A stretch of 23,050 nucleotides of DNA from a virus: IMG/VR virus record IMGVR_UViG_3300022198_001925, positions 1 through 23,050 of that record; one strand, written 5' to 3'. The notes below the pieces were generated by a model, which saw only the letters and a list, made by a program, of their open reading frames with translations, was not told the origin of the DNA and searched no databases. Made by a program: the position numbers and the translations under genes. Shown here piece by piece: positions 4,055-18,856 of the stretch. Numbering within the stretch: the stretch's first letter is position 1; each line of letters begins with the position of its first letter.

Positions 4055-5443
4055 TCACGAAATCAAACCATCGACAATGGTTTCTGAACCAGAATAATCG
4101 CAAGGCAAAGCGTAACCAAGCGTTGCCATATTGAAGAAACGGTCGAATTCAATAGTGAATTTGCCTTCGCCGTTGTTTGTAACATCAAAGGTTGATTCGT
4201 CGTCGTAGGAAAATCTGGTGCTTCCGGGGATGACTTGATATGCGAGTCCGCCAGCAATGGGTCGGTGCATTTCTGCAAGACAAAGGTCATCAATAAAAAC
4301 GCTAACGCCGCTGTTGAAAGCAGTCGGCGTTTCAATGACGATGTACGAACCCTTCGGGATTTCGGTGGGCGTCATGCAAACCAGCGTCTTGAGCTGCCAC
4401 GATGTGGTCAGATCGCCACCGACATTGTAGTCAAGCTGAATTTCCATCTTCCGGTTACTGTCGGCGTTGTTTAGAACAGTAGAGCCATCAGTAACGTACA
4501 CCTTAAGCTGGCCAGCGCTCATGACCCCCGTCTGCTTAACGGCAAAGCTGATCGTGTACAAAGTATCAGGCTTAATTCTGCCAAGGGTGCCAGAAGAAGA
4601 GTTAAACGACTGCGTAAGCTTTACGGCTGTAGAACCGTCGCCAACAATTTCAAGGCACTTGCTACCGCGATAAGCACCAGAATCTTCGAGGACATCAGTG
4701 CCAGCGGCGCCGGTAGCGATCGTCCAACCATCCGGGGTGTTGGTCGTGAAGTTCTCAAAGGTCGAGTTCCGAAGCACGTTGTATCCGGCGCCGATGTTCT
4801 GCTCAGCATAAGAATTGGCCGCATTGATTCTGGCACGAGTGCCGCTGCCTTTGGGCCAATCTTCGTCAAGATTGACTTCAGCTCGCTGTCCAAGGATCTC
4901 GAACTCCTCAGCACCCTCAGAAACAGACGGATCGGTAGAGTCGGCGGTGCAGCGAACCCGAATCAGTTCTGACTTGATTGAAGGGTAGTCAACGACGGTC
5001 GGGGCGTAGACTTGAGAAGCAAGGCCGCTAGCAACCAAAACGCCTTTCCCAGCACCAAAGCTTGAAGGCGTTCCAATCGTAATCGTAGTGCCCTCTACGG
5101 TTGAGCCAGCGTCAATCATCTGTCTGATGAGTTCCCGAATGGCGGTTGGAACCGTCTTGTTTGGAAGACCTCCGCCATAAAAAAGCACGAGGTCATCGTC
5201 AACCATCTCAATCAGAGTCGAGTCAGCATCACGCTTAATAGCCTGAATAATCCTGTTGGAATCGTTGATCCTGCTTTCAATGTCCTTGGTCAAACTTCCA
5301 ACCATGTACATGTCAGCGTCGGAATACTCGCTGATAACGTCAGCGTATTCAGTTCTTAGGTTGGCTTGATGAGCGCGTACGGTTTCGGCCATGCCAAAAA
5401 GCTTGCCGAGACGAGCAAACAAAGTTGAAGCAGAAACACCCAT
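4055..5443 (-). CDS. Minor structural protein with carbohydrate-binding jelly roll
   Basis: 462 residues from ATG 5443, in TAATG overlap with the upstream stop; an upstream start in the same frame would add 20 residues inside the previous gene. The first ~90 residues are helical (TLFARLGKLFGMAETVRAHQ, then SRINDSNRIIQAIKRDADST). The middle holds beta segments. From about residue 215 it reads like a CBM4/9/22-type jelly roll: NVLRNSTFENF, PDGWTIATG, YRGSKCLEI, PDTLYTISFAVKQTG, and VSVFIDDLCLAEM. The last ~60 residues are another beta stretch. The helical N-terminus resembles tail-anchored regions, the jelly roll a glycan binder. A tail fibre or tail-tip role is likely. Confidence 0.72.
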   Translation of the reverse strand: MGVSASTLFARLGKLFGMAETVRAHQANLRTEYADVISEYSDADMYMVGSLTKDIESRINDSNRIIQAIKRDADSTLIEMVDDDLVLFYGGGLPNKTVPTAIRELIRQMIDAGSTVEGTTITIGTPSSFGAGKGVLVASGLASQVYAPTVVDYPSIKSELIRVRCTADSTDPSVSEGAEEFEILGQRAEVNLDEDWPKGSGTRARINAANSYAEQNIGAGYNVLRNSTFENFTTNTPDGWTIATGAAGTDVLEDSGAYRGSKCLEIVGDGSTAVKLTQSFNSSSGTLGRIKPDTLYTISFAVKQTGVMSAGQLKVYVTDGSTVLNNADSNRKMEIQLDYNVGGDLTTSWQLKTLVCMTPTEIPKGSYIVIETPTAFNSGVSVFIDDLCLAEMHRPIAGGLAYQVIPGSTRFSYDDESTFDVTNNGEGKFTIEFDRFFNMATLGYALPCDYSGSETIVDGLIS

Positions 5444-5700
5444 TAGTCTGATTTCCTTGGCATCAAGTTGTTGAGAACTTTGCGTCTTGCACCACAGCCG
5501 CACGGTTTTCTGGTGACCTTTTCTACCTTCTTGACAATCTTGTCAATCCCAATGGTTTTTAGGCCAACATGAACAATGTCTCCAACCCCCCGTATTTTGC
5601 CATCATAATCGTTGCAGCTTTGGCAATACTCGCTACTCGGCTTTTTATTCTCGTGCCCAAGAACACAAAATGGCCCCACCTTGTGCTTGCAATCAGACAT
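5443..5700 (-). CDS. Small cysteine-rich protein with terminal CGCG motif
   Basis: 85 residues, overlapping the previous stop by eight bases. The N-terminal part has spaced cysteines and histidines (CKHKVGPFC, then CQSC) that could hold zinc or iron. A helical middle (GVGDIVHVGLKTIGIDKIVKKVEKV) leads to PCGCGARRKVLNNLMP. A CGCG-x-RR-x-x-LN ending after a G-x-GD helix is a pattern I have met in small proteins beside phage tail genes, function unknown. Two metal sites or one shared site are possible. Stop overlaps the next start as TAATG. Confidence 0.75.
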   Translation of the reverse strand: MSDCKHKVGPFCVLGHENKKPSSEYCQSCNDYDGKIRGVGDIVHVGLKTIGIDKIVKKVEKVTRKPCGCGARRKVLNNLMPRKSD

Positions 5701-8595: not shown

Positions 8596-8801
8596 TGCCT
8601 AATGAACTCGTTTAGGGATTGAAGTTCACTCAGGATATCGGCAAGGACTTCCACAATCGGATCAGTCTGATTGCTCAAGCTCTCTGAAATCGACATCCCA
8701 CTACCAGAAGCAAATGCAGGATCAAATTCGCCAGATTCACGGATCTTCTCCAAGTCGGCAAACGCGGCTTCAATTTCTCTGATGTCTTCGGGGTTAATCA
8801 T
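8592..8801 (-). CDS. Small acidic helical protein, unknown function
   Basis: 69 residues joined by ATGA at both ends, so certainly within the coupled series. It is almost wholly helical and acidic (EDIREIEAAFADLEKIRES), with a Gly/Ser-rich break in the middle (ASGSGMSISES) and a second helix (IVEVLADILSELQSLNEFI) whose hydrophobic spacing suggests a coiled coil. It may be an assembly chaperone or tail-connector partner. Not recognised. Confidence 0.75.
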   Translation of the reverse strand: MINPEDIREIEAAFADLEKIRESGEFDPAFASGSGMSISESLSNQTDPIVEVLADILSELQSLNEFIRQ

Positions 8802-9286
8802 GGTGAGGGTATTATTTCTGTTTCAAGCAAGACGTTTGTACCATCATAGCTGCCAGTGAACAGCCCTTGAATGGTCAACGGGATGAATGGAGCTGTTCTT
8901 TGGTATTGAAGCTGAATGCCCGTAATCAAAGAATCAAAACTGACAAACCGAGTTTTACTCCCGTCTGAATCGCCACCAAACATCAAACTGATCTGGACGT
9001 TGTTGTTGTTGGTGGTGCTTTTCAACTGGTCAAACTGGACCTTTTTGTTGACCATCCACCCAGACAAAGCAAACGAGCCAGCAATGAAGCCAAGGTGTCG
9101 GATGTCTGAAAACGAGTCGCCTTCGGCCGTGATGTCAAACGGTTTGGTTTGTGGCGACAAGACATACGAGCCAATCTTCATGTAGAAGCGTTGGCCTTGG
9201 CCGTTATCGTCAGCGTTAATGCTGCCAGCGGCCAAACGCGAAATCGTATCGCCAACGCCATTAGGCTTGACAATGGCAAACGACAT
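8798..9286 (-). CDS. Tail-associated structural protein, copy B of a paralogous pair
   Basis: 162 residues, three bases after the 69-residue module's stop. Homologous along its length to the protein at 11155-11634: AIVKPN, DDNG-RFYM, EGDSFSDIRH, FALSGWMVNK, FVSFDSLITGIQL, GLFTGSYDG. Divergence is well beyond recent duplication. All-beta pattern, no membrane segment, two residues of proline at the end. A tail-tube-like or baseplate-ring role is plausible from shape only. The following gene starts in an ATGA overlap. Confidence 0.75.
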   Translation of the reverse strand: MSFAIVKPNGVGDTISRLAAGSINADDNGQGQRFYMKIGSYVLSPQTKPFDITAEGDSFSDIRHLGFIAGSFALSGWMVNKKVQFDQLKSTTNNNNVQISLMFGGDSDGSKTRFVSFDSLITGIQLQYQRTAPFIPLTIQGLFTGSYDGTNVLLETEIIPSP

Positions 9287-9289
9287 CTA

Positions 9290-9499
9290 TCAGGGTCCGA
9301 TCTTTGCCCAAGATGCGGACTCGAAAGTCCCCTGATTGATGTAGAGTTCGCCGGTTGCCGTGTTTACAGCAAGCGCTCCCTTGCCATACCCACTAATGGT
9401 GTCGGTCGGGGTTCCGGCAACAATGTGCAGAAAAGCGCCTTCAAAATCGACACCCTTCTGAGATTGTCCAAGTTCAAACGCTGCGTTGTGTCCAGACAT
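9290..9499 (-). CDS. Stand-alone 69-residue virion module, paralogue of the SGNH protein N-terminus
   Basis: Start ATG 9499 is preceded by AAAGGA seven bases upstream; the frame extends further but MSGH matches the paralogue's start. It shares MSGH, GQ-QKGV-F-G-FL, GTP, ISG-GKGALA and LYINQG with residues 1-67 of the SGNH protein encoded just upstream, about half identical by eye. The G-KGALAV-T-TG-LYINQG-W core appears in many phage structural proteins and probably forms a small beta fold that docks on the virion. As a free subunit it may fill sites not taken by the enzyme. It begins 11 bases after the hydrolase stop. Confidence 0.8.
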   Translation of the reverse strand: MSGHNAAFELGQSQKGVDFEGAFLHIVAGTPTDTISGYGKGALAVNTATGELYINQGTFESASWAKIGP

Positions 9500-9510: not shown

Positions 9511-11145
9511 TCAGGCTCCAGTGAGTGCGGTGTTGGTGATTTGTTCCCAAACGAATTCAGCAACAACTTTCGACAACTGCGGGGTCGGGTGAGCAGAATC
9601 GACAAGCCAGTAATTTGGCGCTGTTGCGAAGGCTGTCGGCACAATCCCAAGGTCTCTAACACCATGGTACAAGTCAATTGACGAGTAATTGTTTGACTTC
9701 GCAAGATTCAAAACGCGATAGGCGCGTTCTTCCCAAACCGGCGCCGGTCCTGCGCCGTAGTTGGTCATAACAACAATTTTTACATCGTTTGCCGAGTACC
9801 CAGTGTCACCCTGAGTTGCGTCAAGGTTGTTACGCATTCTTTGGATTGCTTGCTGAATGTACGTTTCTTCATCAAACCCATCGTCTGCGGAATTGTTGAA
9901 CATTGAATAGTAAATAATATTCGGCTTAAACACCTTCAGCATTTCTTGGATTGCTTCGTCCGAAACCCAAGCAGTTCCACCATCAGTTTCGTGAGGCGTT
10001 TGTTCTGGCTGACCAAACCCATTATCCAAAATTCCGTGAGATGCCCAACTACATCCACCGCTACCCATGTAGCCAAGAATCATCCCGTCACTAATGTCGT
10101 CGTTTTCAATAACAGAAAAGATCGGGAGGAACTTGTCGGTTTGAAGTGTTCCAGATGCGGCGGCGTACCTGAAATACGCCGAGGTTCCAAGAATGTCTTG
10201 GTCAATGTTCTGGGTAGTCAACTCTGTAGTATAAAAATTTCCACTCAGAGTGAAATTGCCAGTAGTTGTTCCAGATGCGCCGTGAAAAGTCGAAGACGTG
10301 GCGTTCAGGTCCGTTCCATAATTAATACCGCCGGTTGTGGTGTCCCTGTACCAAAGGGTTTTGTTGGTCCAAGTGGTATTAACCGCGTTGTACCAACGCT
10401 CGGAATTCACCCCGCCAGACGAACTATCAAAAACTTGATTTCGACCGACAGAAAACCCTTGGTTTTCAGGATCAGTCCAACCAAATTGCCATTCAAGAAT
10501 ATCACCATTCTCGTCTGGAAAATCAATATTGGTTGCCGAAACTGTGGCGGTTGCATTAAACGGAGCAAAACTGCTTGTTCCATTTGGAACACCAGTAAAA
10601 CCGTTGGTAAAAACAGTTGGCTGAATGATGTTGTATTTGCCAGTACCAACACCAACAATGTCGGTGCCCATCTTTACGTTAATGTCGGTAATTCCAGCGA
10701 AGTTGTTGTAAAAGCCTGACTGGAAGCCAGATGCCGACAAGATTGGGCAATGGCCTGCCCATTTGCTGGGTCGCCAATACTTGTGATAAGCGTTTACAAC
10801 TCCCAAGTACCCATCATAACTTGGGGTGTCTGTAATCATCTGGGTTGGGTTATGAATGCTGTCGCCAACAACAAGAACCCTTGCTCTCTCACCATACATA
10901 ACCGGAGCAGCATCAGCGATGTCGCTCATGTAAGCGCCGCCCTGCACCTTGATCCAGTTGGCAAAGGTGGAATTGCCCTGATTGATGTACAGGATTCCAG
11001 ACGCCTTGTCGATAGCAAGTGCGCCCTTTCCAAATCCAGAAATGTTGTTCGCCGGTGTTCCGCTGCTAAAAGAAAGGAACCTTCCGTCAAACGAAACACC
11101 CTTTTGGGGCTGGCCAAGATCGGCTGCTCTGGTATGTCCGCTCAT
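9511..11145 (-). CDS. SGNH/GDSL-type hydrolase tail protein with N-terminal virion module
   Basis: 544 residues, start ATG 11145 with AGGGA seven bases upstream. Residues 1-67 match the stand-alone protein at 9290-9499 (shared MSGH, QKGV-F-G-FL, ISG-GKGALA and LYINQG), likely a virion attachment module. The rest reads as an SGNH hydrolase: VLVVGDSIHN with Ser96 in GDS, a glycine-rich GYMGSGGCSW, IIYYSMFNNSAD as a candidate for the Asn block, and VDSAHP with Asp516 and His519. These enzymes remove acetyl or other ester groups from sugars. The distance from Ser96 to Asp516 is far longer than usual (whole domains are often about 200 residues), so a beta-rich, Thr/Ser-rich insert at roughly 150-350 is likely. 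Probable role: deacylating host surface polysaccharide during adsorption. Confidence 0.75.
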   Translation of the reverse strand: MSGHTRAADLGQPQKGVSFDGRFLSFSSGTPANNISGFGKGALAIDKASGILYINQGNSTFANWIKVQGGAYMSDIADAAPVMYGERARVLVVGDSIHNPTQMITDTPSYDGYLGVVNAYHKYWRPSKWAGHCPILSASGFQSGFYNNFAGITDINVKMGTDIVGVGTGKYNIIQPTVFTNGFTGVPNGTSSFAPFNATATVSATNIDFPDENGDILEWQFGWTDPENQGFSVGRNQVFDSSSGGVNSERWYNAVNTTWTNKTLWYRDTTTGGINYGTDLNATSSTFHGASGTTTGNFTLSGNFYTTELTTQNIDQDILGTSAYFRYAAASGTLQTDKFLPIFSVIENDDISDGMILGYMGSGGCSWASHGILDNGFGQPEQTPHETDGGTAWVSDEAIQEMLKVFKPNIIYYSMFNNSADDGFDEETYIQQAIQRMRNNLDATQGDTGYSANDVKIVVMTNYGAGPAPVWEERAYRVLNLAKSNNYSSIDLYHGVRDLGIVPTAFATAPNYWLVDSAHPTPQLSKVVAEFVWEQITNTALTGA

Positions 11146-11154
11146 TTTGTTTCC

Positions 11155-11634
11155 CTAAGAAGAAACCGTTCCGGTTTCAACAAACATTTCCGTCTGGCTT
11201 GTGGTCAGATATGTATCTGTCATTAGGCCAGAAATTTGAATAGAAGAAAACGGGCCGTCAAGTGCCCATCCTACCTGAATTTGACTGACGATCGCCCTGA
11301 AAACGAAATATCTGATTGCCGCGCCAGTTCGGCCAACAGCAACTGCAATGTCAAAGGGGTTGTTTGATTGGCTGTTGATATTTGCAACACCAACGGCATA
11401 TTCAGTCACCATGTAGCCTCGCATGGAAAACTGGCCGTTCTGCATTTGGTTGTGCTGAAAATGCCGAACGGTATCGCCGTCTCCGGTCAACTCAGCAACC
11501 TGAGTTCCGACAGAAATCGCCATGCTCTGGACGTTCATGTAGAACTTCTTAACACCGTTGTCATCTATGCCAGAAGTCGATGCAAAGCTCGACTCGCCAG
11601 ACATGTTCGGTTTGAGAAGGGCGACTCTGGCCAT
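11155..11634 (-). CDS. Tail-associated structural protein, copy A of a paralogous pair
   Basis: 159 residues, starting three bases after the adaptor stop. It aligns along its whole length with the protein at 8798-9286: both have KPN near the N-terminus, DDNG then FYM around residue 30, a GD(T/S)-RH segment near 52, a G-x-F-x-x-x-G-(Y/W)-M-V motif near 70, an IVSQIQ/LITGIQ strand near 115 and a GLMTDTY/GLFTGSY end. The fold looks all-beta, suggesting a tail or neck ring subunit. It directly precedes the SGNH hydrolase gene, whose N-terminal module is also duplicated. Family not known to me. Confidence 0.75.
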   Translation of the reverse strand: MARVALLKPNMSGESSFASTSGIDDNGVKKFYMNVQSMAISVGTQVAELTGDGDTVRHFQHNQMQNGQFSMRGYMVTEYAVGVANINSQSNNPFDIAVAVGRTGAAIRYFVFRAIVSQIQVGWALDGPFSSIQISGLMTDTYLTTSQTEMFVETGTVSS

Positions 11635-14099: not shown

Positions 14100-14337
14100 C
14101 TAGCTTTTCGCTTTCCTCGACGTAATGAAGTGTTTCCAAATGAAATGCGTGCTTCAACATAGCGTCACAGAGAAGCTCGTTCCCATTCCTCTGGTACATC
14201 ATTTTACTCTTTTTGCCCTGAGTAAACGTAGTAATCACAATAATTGCATCAGCACCAGATTCTTGGAGTTCGTTCATAAATCTTGCGCACGTTTGCTCTA
14301 AACCGATTTCAATCGCACTTTTTCTCGGCTTGGGCAT
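14092..14337 (-). CDS. Small soluble protein of unknown function
   Basis: 81 residues, starting in a TAATG overlap with the phosphoesterase stop, hence probably co-translated. After a basic N-terminus (MPKPRKSA) it alternates helix and strand (ARFMNELQES, ADAIIVITTF), then a basic GKKSKMMYQRNG loop, a helix and an acidic end. This looks like a small alpha/beta fold, possibly a partner of the phosphoesterase, but I do not recognise a family. Its last eight bases overlap the next gene's start. Confidence 0.7.
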   Translation of the reverse strand: MPKPRKSAIEIGLEQTCARFMNELQESGADAIIVITTFTQGKKSKMMYQRNGNELLCDAMLKHAFHLETLHYVEESEKLDE

Positions 14338-15206
14338 TAGGTGGCCTCCATAAATTCAAAATCAAGCTTCTCTTCTGAGTTCAGGAAAAACCTCAGCCAC
14401 CAAGCCCCAAGAGGTTTTGGCGTGCCACCACGCTCAATGTGCCACCCCTTGAACGAACTGTATTCGTCTTTGTAACCCGGTATCTTGATGTGGACCTGAC
14501 GATCAAGATACGGGATGCCAACGTGATTTAGCCTAGATCGGTCAATTTGCAAGGCCCATTTTTCGTGAACGTGGCCGCTAACCACAATGTTGCAATCTGG
14601 CAGATACGTCGCCATTCGATTCGTTTGGATGACGCCCTTAGTAACCGGGCCTCCGCCACCATAGCCGTGGTGGTATCCAAGAATCACGTTGCTTGACTTG
14701 CGGATTCCGTGTTGAACCCTAAACCGGATAAACCCGGCGTAATCTCCCATTACAAGCTTATTGGCACCGGCTTTTTGCATCCCTTCAACAAACCTTGCGG
14801 TTGGGTCTGTTTCGTGGTGCTTTAGGATGCTGGTTTCGTGATTGCCGGGACTAACAAAGGCCCAGTGTTTGGCGTAGGGCGCAAAAAAATCGACTGCGGT
14901 TTCAATCACCGAGTCGATGTAACGGCCTTCGCGATGTTCCGGCCTGCACTGGCTTGTGTCTGATCTGCGGTCCCACTTCCCTTGCATTAGACACATGAGG
15001 TCGCCAAAGTCACAAATAAGGGCGTCTCTCTGCTTTGCCTGTTCAAGGTGCTTTTTTTCTAAGCTCCAATCTGCCTTCGCATTGTCGTGATGTCGATCGG
15101 AAGACAAAAGAACCCATTGTTCCCAGCCAGACTGCTTTGAAATTTTGAAATCAATTGAAACGCAACCGCTGCTTGTTTTTTCTGTTGCAATGTTGCTCAA
15201 AGACAC
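14337..15206 (-). CDS. Calcineurin-like metallophosphoesterase
   Basis: 289 residues from GTG 15206, chosen because a perfect AAGGAG lies six bases upstream; a TTG seven codons earlier would start inside the terminator. All metal-site motifs of the superfamily are visible in order: DRHHD (residues 37-41), GD (68-69), GNHE (121-124), a His pair in GYHHG (179-180) and GHVH (211-214). Enzymes of this family use two metal ions to cleave phosphodiesters or phosphomonoesters; the substrate here is unknown. It is the first gene after the terminator, so it needs read-through or its own promoter, which I cannot see. It is probably a soluble accessory enzyme acting on nucleotides or nucleic acid. Its stop overlaps the next start as TAATG. 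Confidence 0.88.
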   Translation of the reverse strand: MSLSNIATEKTSSGCVSIDFKISKQSGWEQWVLLSSDRHHDNAKADWSLEKKHLEQAKQRDALICDFGDLMCLMQGKWDRRSDTSQCRPEHREGRYIDSVIETAVDFFAPYAKHWAFVSPGNHETSILKHHETDPTARFVEGMQKAGANKLVMGDYAGFIRFRVQHGIRKSSNVILGYHHGYGGGGPVTKGVIQTNRMATYLPDCNIVVSGHVHEKWALQIDRSRLNHVGIPYLDRQVHIKIPGYKDEYSSFKGWHIERGGTPKPLGAWWLRFFLNSEEKLDFEFMEAT

Positions 15207-15225
15207 TTCTGACTCCTTAAAAGAC

Positions 15226-15260
15226 AAGGGGGCGCCGATTGACTCAATCGACGCCCCCTT
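15226..15260 (-). terminator. Rho-independent terminator after the capsid genes
   Basis: Bases 15226-15260 form an inverted repeat of about 17-18 base pairs around a three-base loop (15242-15244). The arms carry five consecutive G:C pairs (15228-15232 with 15254-15258). The only mismatch on the plus strand (15235 with 15251) becomes a G-U pair in the minus-strand RNA. Downstream on the minus strand comes a T-rich tract (TTGTCTTTT). It sits between the stop of the lectin-like gene (15281) and the start of the phosphoesterase gene (15206). A second small palindrome (15267-15282) overlaps the upstream stop. Confidence 0.8.
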
Positions 15261-17949: not shown

Positions 17950-18320
17950 CAACCATCTCCATATCCGCCGTTCTTGTCGTGCATTCCATTGGCACGCAGG
18001 AAATTGCGACGGTGGTTTCGATCTCGGAAGATGGCCTGTCCAGTCTTCCTGTCATATTCAGTCGGTACACCAATCTTCGCAGAAGCAGCTTCTGCCTTGG
18101 CCGCATCTGCTGGGTGAACGCCAGCGGCATCGCTTTTAATGGGCCAGCCAGAGGAAGCACCACGAGAAGCCTGCCGGTTGTGTTCAGCAGCAATGTCTCT
18201 TTCGTACCATTGCCCTTCAATACTCAAGCCCTTTTCGCCATACTTGAGCATTTCGGCTACAGACATAAACTTGCGAACTGTATGTCCGGTTTCTTTGTTG
18301 GTAAAGCAGTAATAAGGCAT
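17949..18320 (-). CDS. Small phage protein ahead of the scaffold (unknown function)
   Basis: 123 residues from ATG 18320, which overlaps the previous stop as TAATG; a start seven codons upstream is possible but less likely. The N-terminus (MPYYCFTNKETGHTVRKFMS) faintly resembles FmdB-type small regulators, but the zinc-binding cysteine pairs are missing. The C-terminus is basic then glycine-rich (RDRNHRRNFLRANG, ending GGYGDG), a pattern I associate with small proteins next to phage scaffold genes, though I cannot name a family. Its TGA at 17951-17949 overlaps the scaffold ATG. A role in head assembly is inferred from position. Confidence 0.7.
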   Translation of the reverse strand: MPYYCFTNKETGHTVRKFMSVAEMLKYGEKGLSIEGQWYERDIAAEHNRQASRGASSGWPIKSDAAGVHPADAAKAEAASAKIGVPTEYDRKTGQAIFRDRNHRRNFLRANGMHDKNGGYGDG

Positions 18321-18856
18321 TAGGGAAGTTCCCACCCCCATTGGGTGTTCAAAATGCCAAGGTCAGATCCGCCAACCTTGCCATCAAAATCAAGATCGGA
18401 CCGCTGGGCATCGGTGCCCCAATCCGCAAACAGCAAGCCCCGGTCTTCGCCGTCCACCTTGCCATCCTCGTTGATGTCGCCCACAGGATACAGTTGGATC
18501 GCCCAGTCAATAGGCACGACTTCAGTCTGAAGCGGCCCGACCGCAGTCTTCCACTCAGCGACAATCACCTTCTGCGACCACTCCCAGCAGACCTCCCCAT
18601 CCGTCACCACAGGCTTCTTGCCGTCAGGGATCTTCCACCGCATCTGGAATGTGTGGATTCGATTTGACGCCATCTTGTTCTCAGTGGTGATCTCGCCATC
18701 CATTTGCCACTCCCAGTCGGTGGTCTCAATGGTGTAGATCACATCGGTCTTCTTGGTGTCATTGTCGTCGTGAGCCTCCACGACCCAGATCCCGTCAAGG
18801 AAAAGCCGGGTGGCCTGCATGGCGGTGAGTGCTACTGCGCAGATCTGGACTTGCAT
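18320..18856 (-). CDS. Dockerin-like EF-hand-repeat protein, probable cargo (moron) gene
   Basis: 178 residues, start ATG 18856 preceded by a clear GGAG. The C-terminal ~50 residues hold two calcium-loop repeats: GDINEDGKVDGEDRGLLFADW and, about 20 residues later, DLDFDGKVGGSDLGILNTQW. Paired D-x-N/D-x-D-G-x-V loops each followed by a helix are the dockerin type I pattern, abundant in Planctomycetes secreted proteins. The first ~110 residues form a Trp-rich beta-like domain I do not recognise. The N-terminus (MQVQICAVALTAMQA) is only a weak secretion signal. Codon choice looks richer in G and C than in neighbouring genes, and the gene has its own leader, both suggesting acquisition. The role could be calcium-dependent adhesion or a virion attachment function; this is inference. 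Confidence 0.7.
   Translation of the reverse strand: MQVQICAVALTAMQATRLFLDGIWVVEAHDDNDTKKTDVIYTIETTDWEWQMDGEITTENKMASNRIHTFQMRWKIPDGKKPVVTDGEVCWEWSQKVIVAEWKTAVGPLQTEVVPIDWAIQLYPVGDINEDGKVDGEDRGLLFADWGTDAQRSDLDFDGKVGGSDLGILNTQWGWELP

Follow-up and report, generated by a model that had tools for sequence, protein, structure and literature searches.

The 544-residue protein P0001, encoded at positions 9511..11145 of the window (the whole 23,050-nucleotide stretch analysed here, a 23-kb virus record from an environmental contig), is probably an SGNH hydrolase. On balance, we favour the view that it is a virion-associated SGNH-type carbohydrate O-acylesterase, carried on a duplicated small structural protein and split by an insert of about 215 residues that would hold the polysaccharide. 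The open reading frame lies on the minus strand, with its ATG at 11145 and its stop at 9511, and its product comprises an N-terminal anchor (residues 1-67), a segment with block I (about 84-130), the insert (about 130-345) and the rest of the presumed SGNH domain (about 345-544). We read the protein as an SGNH enzyme because its motifs occur in block-like order, a modelled alpha/beta core follows the expected order, SGNH enzymes recur among weak fold matches and the protein of a relative gives a weak GDSL match. We place it on the virion because its anchor was duplicated from a gene of the structural block, the same module stands alone in relatives, and anchor-like modules follow capsid genes elsewhere.

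SGNH enzymes are recognised by short conserved blocks; block III is usually G-x-N-D, with its Asn in the oxyanion hole, to which the Gly of block II also contributes. The preliminary description had identified an SGNH-type hydrolase from Ser96 in a GDS and Asp516/His519 in a D-x-x-H, and both motifs are present in P0001 exactly as numbered. The block I-like VLVVGDS (residues 90-96; 10858..10878, minus strand) carries the presumed nucleophile Ser96 in the context VLVVGDS96IHN, where a hydrophobic strand precedes the GDS as the SGNH/GDSL superfamily requires. The block V-like DSAH (residues 516-519; 9589..9600, minus strand) lies in the context LVD516SAH519PT and is followed by a modelled helix at 522-542, as in block V of the superfamily. 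Between them, GSGG at residues 361-364 (10054..10065, minus strand) is a candidate block II by its position in the sequence, and SMFNN at residues 414-418 (9892..9906, minus strand) is a candidate block III by sequence and by a modelled strand at 410-417, at the end of which lies Asn417. Here, Met takes the place of the Gly of the usual block III.

The bare motif pair is not rare. P0001 itself holds two further D-x-x-H (D95-H98 and D491-H494), and a bare GDS with any later D-x-x-H arises in 712 of 20,000 shuffles of residues 68-544 (3.6%) and in 21 of the 491 open reading frames of at least 300 amino acids from the fetched loci. A scan of this kind gave false positives, two of them capsid proteins, and for this reason the bare pair was dropped as evidence. 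A fuller, block-like form, in which three hydrophobic residues precede the GDS and D-x-x-H-P-[TNSD] lies at most 45 residues from the C-terminus, appears in none of 200,000 shuffles and in P0001 alone among 1,623 open reading frames; the pattern was composed with P0001 already known, and the count is a guide rather than a blind test. The motif observation is thus real and beyond chance, and the pair cited earlier is the weaker part of the case. These counts also bear on an unlikely alternative, in which P0001 is no enzyme but serves receptor binding or decoration, its alpha/beta part being Rossmann-like and its GDS and D-x-x-H coincidental or degenerate: the commonness of the bare pair would suit such a protein, while the absence of the fuller form from shuffles and other open reading frames speaks against it.

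Searches of Pfam, NCBIfam and PHROG with P0001, whole and in fragments, gave no SGNH match, and to this extent the hydrolase assignment of the preliminary description goes without family support and the non-enzymatic alternative gains some. A match to HTH_16 (E 0.01-0.06, below cut-off) was judged to be due to chance. A Pfam search in which the insert was cut out and the flanking block I and C-terminal pieces were fused brought no gain, and a sequence search of the PDB with P0001 returned noise alone. Interrupted SGNH domains such as those of the haemagglutinin-esterases are known to give poor alignments with other members of the superfamily (PMC9487903). Neither tblastn nor pattern scans of phages, plasmids, and viral and genome contigs found homologues of the whole protein, its C-terminal part or its insert; the pattern scans require near-exact 8-residue words, and distant relatives may therefore have been missed. 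A search for host genomes with the capsid protein as query found none.

Two AlphaFold runs were made on P0001, one from the single sequence, which was poor (pLDDT 35), and a second with 14 anchor rows. In the second model most of the anchor exceeds pLDDT 90. Residues 391-490, with block means of 57-82, include an alpha/beta core of moderate confidence at 393-490. This core runs from a helix through a strand (410-417) ending at FNN, a helix, a strand (456-463) and a further helix, and a last helix follows DSAHPT. The order is, with moderate confidence in the model, the one that the latter half of an SGNH domain should show, and argues against the non-enzymatic alternative. Residues 71-392 and 492-520, which cover block I, block V and the insert, have pLDDT below 50. 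Fold comparison of this model gave no match above noise: the weak matches to residues 343-512 include TesA (Z 5.4) and the CE2 esterase 2wao (Z 5.2), and SGNH enzymes recur among them (TesA, CE2, CE3, OafB and SsfX3), accounting for about 5 of the 50 VIA-align rows, with GTPases and TIM barrels interspersed. The many unrelated alpha/beta proteins in this company are also what a non-enzymatic Rossmann-like part might attract.

The 420 residues between Ser96 and Asp516 had earlier been taken as one long insert. The spacing is correct, while the insert itself, with approximate borders at residues 130 and 345 (10111..10758, minus strand), amounts to about 215 amino acids. Thr, Ser, Asn and Gly make up 46% of it against 29% of the C-terminal part. 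The beta-richness attributed to it is reflected in this composition and in low-confidence strands of the single-sequence model, and is hardly seen in the second; profile searches gave no family match for the insert. Nor is such a layout, with an insert described earlier as unusually long, without precedent. In Neisseria Ape, an O-acetylpeptidoglycan esterase, catalytic residues 45-99 and 227-393 enclose an inserted CBM35-like beta-sandwich (104-221) that is proposed to bind carbohydrate (PMC6174289). P0001 resembles Ape in its SGNH-type motifs and, by the positions of those motifs, in having the block I segment parted from the remainder of the catalytic domain by a large insert. It differs in that Ape is a bacterial, periplasmic protein with a shorter insert (about 118 amino acids against about 215) and no virion anchor, and the two have no detectable sequence similarity. 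The haemagglutinin-esterases of animal viruses also carry a domain inside the SGNH domain (PMC9487903) and, like P0001 in the reading favoured here, are virion-borne SGNH esterases with a second domain within. However, their published residue numbers (Ser40, Gly75, Asn104, Asp326 and His329; PMC4707155) place the inserted receptor-binding domain after the Asn of block III and ahead of block V, instead of between I and II. In P0001 just 99 residues separate Asn417 from Asp516 and the long stretch comes before, so that a relationship was rejected on insert position; the viruses are unrelated, and the likeness is one of analogy only.

By analogy with both systems, it is plausible that the insert of P0001 is the sugar-binding half of a two-part enzyme. 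It is also quite possible, though not the reading we prefer, that an SGNH enzyme on the virion carries an insert with no part in carbohydrate binding, made of long loops, an oligomerisation element or a spacer, with specificity arising from the catalytic cleft. The lack of a family match or a modelled domain would fit such an insert; set against it are the beta-sandwiches of Ape and the haemagglutinin-esterases, which are proposed or shown to bind carbohydrate, a length that suffices for a domain and a composition unlike the rest of P0001. The insert position shared with Ape (PMC6174289) could further suggest that the enzyme targets O-acetylated peptidoglycan at entry or release rather than a surface polysaccharide. 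We regard this as quite improbable, given that P0001 showed no sequence similarity to a solved structure of the Ape kind and that capsule or O-antigen is the substrate of those phage SGNH proteins that have been characterised.

The N-terminal module (residues 1-67; 10945..11145, minus strand) would link the presumed enzyme to the particle. It is 55-58% identical to the 69-residue protein of the adjoining downstream gene (9290..9499, minus strand), a small gene that stands alone and is conserved in related phages. Judged by sequence, the module is a diverged copy of this gene, a feature absent from the preliminary description; about two thirds of the aligned DNA positions are identical, and the duplication is therefore not recent. 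Fold comparison matched the anchor, at 49% identity, to an unnamed viral protein of 71 residues (TM 0.88 on the target), and a PDB search with the anchor profile found no solved relative. That residues 1-67 are homologous to a structural-block gene which related phages have kept lends indirect backing to the earlier placement of the protein on the virion.

About 60 related contigs were retrieved with the capsid protein of the window. In the closest well-covered relative (L006), whose capsid protein is 93% identical, the gene order around the locus is the same as in the window, with the small anchor gene alone and the enzyme gene absent. Stand-alone anchors of about 70 amino acids occur in about ten relatives, and one of these contigs carries two of them in tandem (L069:6001-6460), the intermediate state that a route of duplication followed by fusion would predict. 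In unrelated phages an anchor-like module forms a small gene or the end of a 170-residue protein directly downstream of the major capsid gene, the latter confirmed by Pfam in L097, L099, L101, L105, L110, L113 and L117, and this arrangement suggests a head-associated role. The longer form is a widespread protein of about 170 amino acids (EVQTLTLGGTPTGGTF... with a C-terminal anchor-like hairpin), which many unrelated phages encode immediately behind their major capsid gene (L094-L121, e.g. L113:3137-3649). Within the group of the window itself, however, the anchor has as its neighbours an adaptor-like gene and paralogous genes of about 160 codons, the latter read by us as tail-tube-like in spite of their lacking a profile match, and a place on the head is accordingly tentative.

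Several other genes of the window deserve mention. The paralogous proteins of about 160 amino acids (8798-9286 and 11155-11634, minus strand), 31% identical to each other, flank the anchor genes, and both are also present in L006. A calcineurin-like phosphoesterase is encoded within the structural block at 14337-15227 (minus strand; PF00149, E 4e-4, just under cut-off) and is 76% identical in L006. The C-terminal repeats of the product of 18320-18856 (minus strand), upstream of a scaffold-like gene, resemble dockerin type I (PF00404, E 0.003, below cut-off). The product of 4055-5503 (minus strand), 70% identical in L006, carries a carbohydrate-binding domain that is CBM_4_9-like (E 2e-5, with a bit score just below cut-off) and is another candidate sugar-binding protein.

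A second, analogous fusion is found in three relatives (L016, L017 and L160). Their 531-residue protein joins the same kind of anchor to VGDSN, a long middle, HGGAN and a D-V-H near the C-terminus, and is encoded upstream of the terminase gene. PF13472 matches the L016/L017 protein weakly (E 0.005, below cut-off), aligning model positions 33-178 with residues 362-518. A GDSL domain with an interruption behind block I would be expected to produce just such a match, beginning past that block. A PF13472 search over 32 records returned none, an insensitive test, as the L016/L017 protein found by hmmscan also escaped it. P0001 shares with this protein the anchor family, the GDS, a long middle, a block III-like element (HGGAN in the relatives, a candidate in P0001) and a terminal acid-histidine motif (D-x-H in theirs), and differs in the location of the gene and in having no detectable similarity outside the anchor. 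The 22-23% identity of P0001 and the L017 protein over their full length is no better than that of shuffles once the anchor is set aside, and homology beyond the anchor is not claimed. In a tree of 67 columns, and hence a weak one, the L016/L017 anchor groups with other small anchors in a supported clade, apart from the P0001 anchor. The simplest reading of these sequences is that, on two or more occasions, similar enzymes became attached to an anchor of this kind; it is possible that both fusions descend from one fast-changing ancestor. This parallel fusion also argues against a non-enzymatic P0001.

Taken as the esterase that we favour, P0001 would work as follows. Residues 1-67 may plug the enzyme into the particle, tentatively at the head or neck rather than the tail tip, while residues of about 84-130 and 345-544 would fold together as one SGNH domain. 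Ser96, activated by His519 and Asp516, would attack an ester, probably O-acetyl, on a surface polysaccharide, and a Gly near 361-364 together with Asn417 would form the oxyanion hole. The insert, about 215 residues placed after block I and before block II, would lie next to the active site and keep hold of the polysaccharide.

Phage SGNH proteins are known to be esterases (PMC13123978, PMC11654681), and esterases of this kind are established on tail fibres and spikes (PMC13123978, PMC11058221, PMC11654681). G7C gp63.1, Aristophanes gp41, Moo19 gp82 and the Klebsiella prophage fibres are, like P0001, phage structural proteins with SGNH-type or esterase activity, both the structural role and the activity of P0001 being predicted ones. 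They reside on tail fibres or spikes, and no sequence similarity to them was found; the N-terminal module of P0001 instead copies a small protein with look-alikes downstream of capsid genes. Neither the enzyme class nor the split layout is new. The unusual feature is the way the enzyme is carried, on a small structural protein that has been duplicated, and the fact that this recurs. A broader and rather doubtful generalisation is that phages of this kind have repeatedly placed split SGNH enzymes, unrelated to one another, on the head or neck by way of a duplicated small decoration-type protein, such that the body of the particle, and not the tail tip, bears a two-part lectin-esterase, a convergent phage counterpart of the haemagglutinin-esterases. 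Phage SGNH esterases have been described chiefly on tail fibres and spikes. The present arrangement, if it is confirmed, would mean that a duplicated small structural gene can serve as a ready-made socket for enzymes, through which a phage gains surface enzymes with its tail untouched, and the anchor module would provide a sequence handle for finding other enzymes displayed in the same way.
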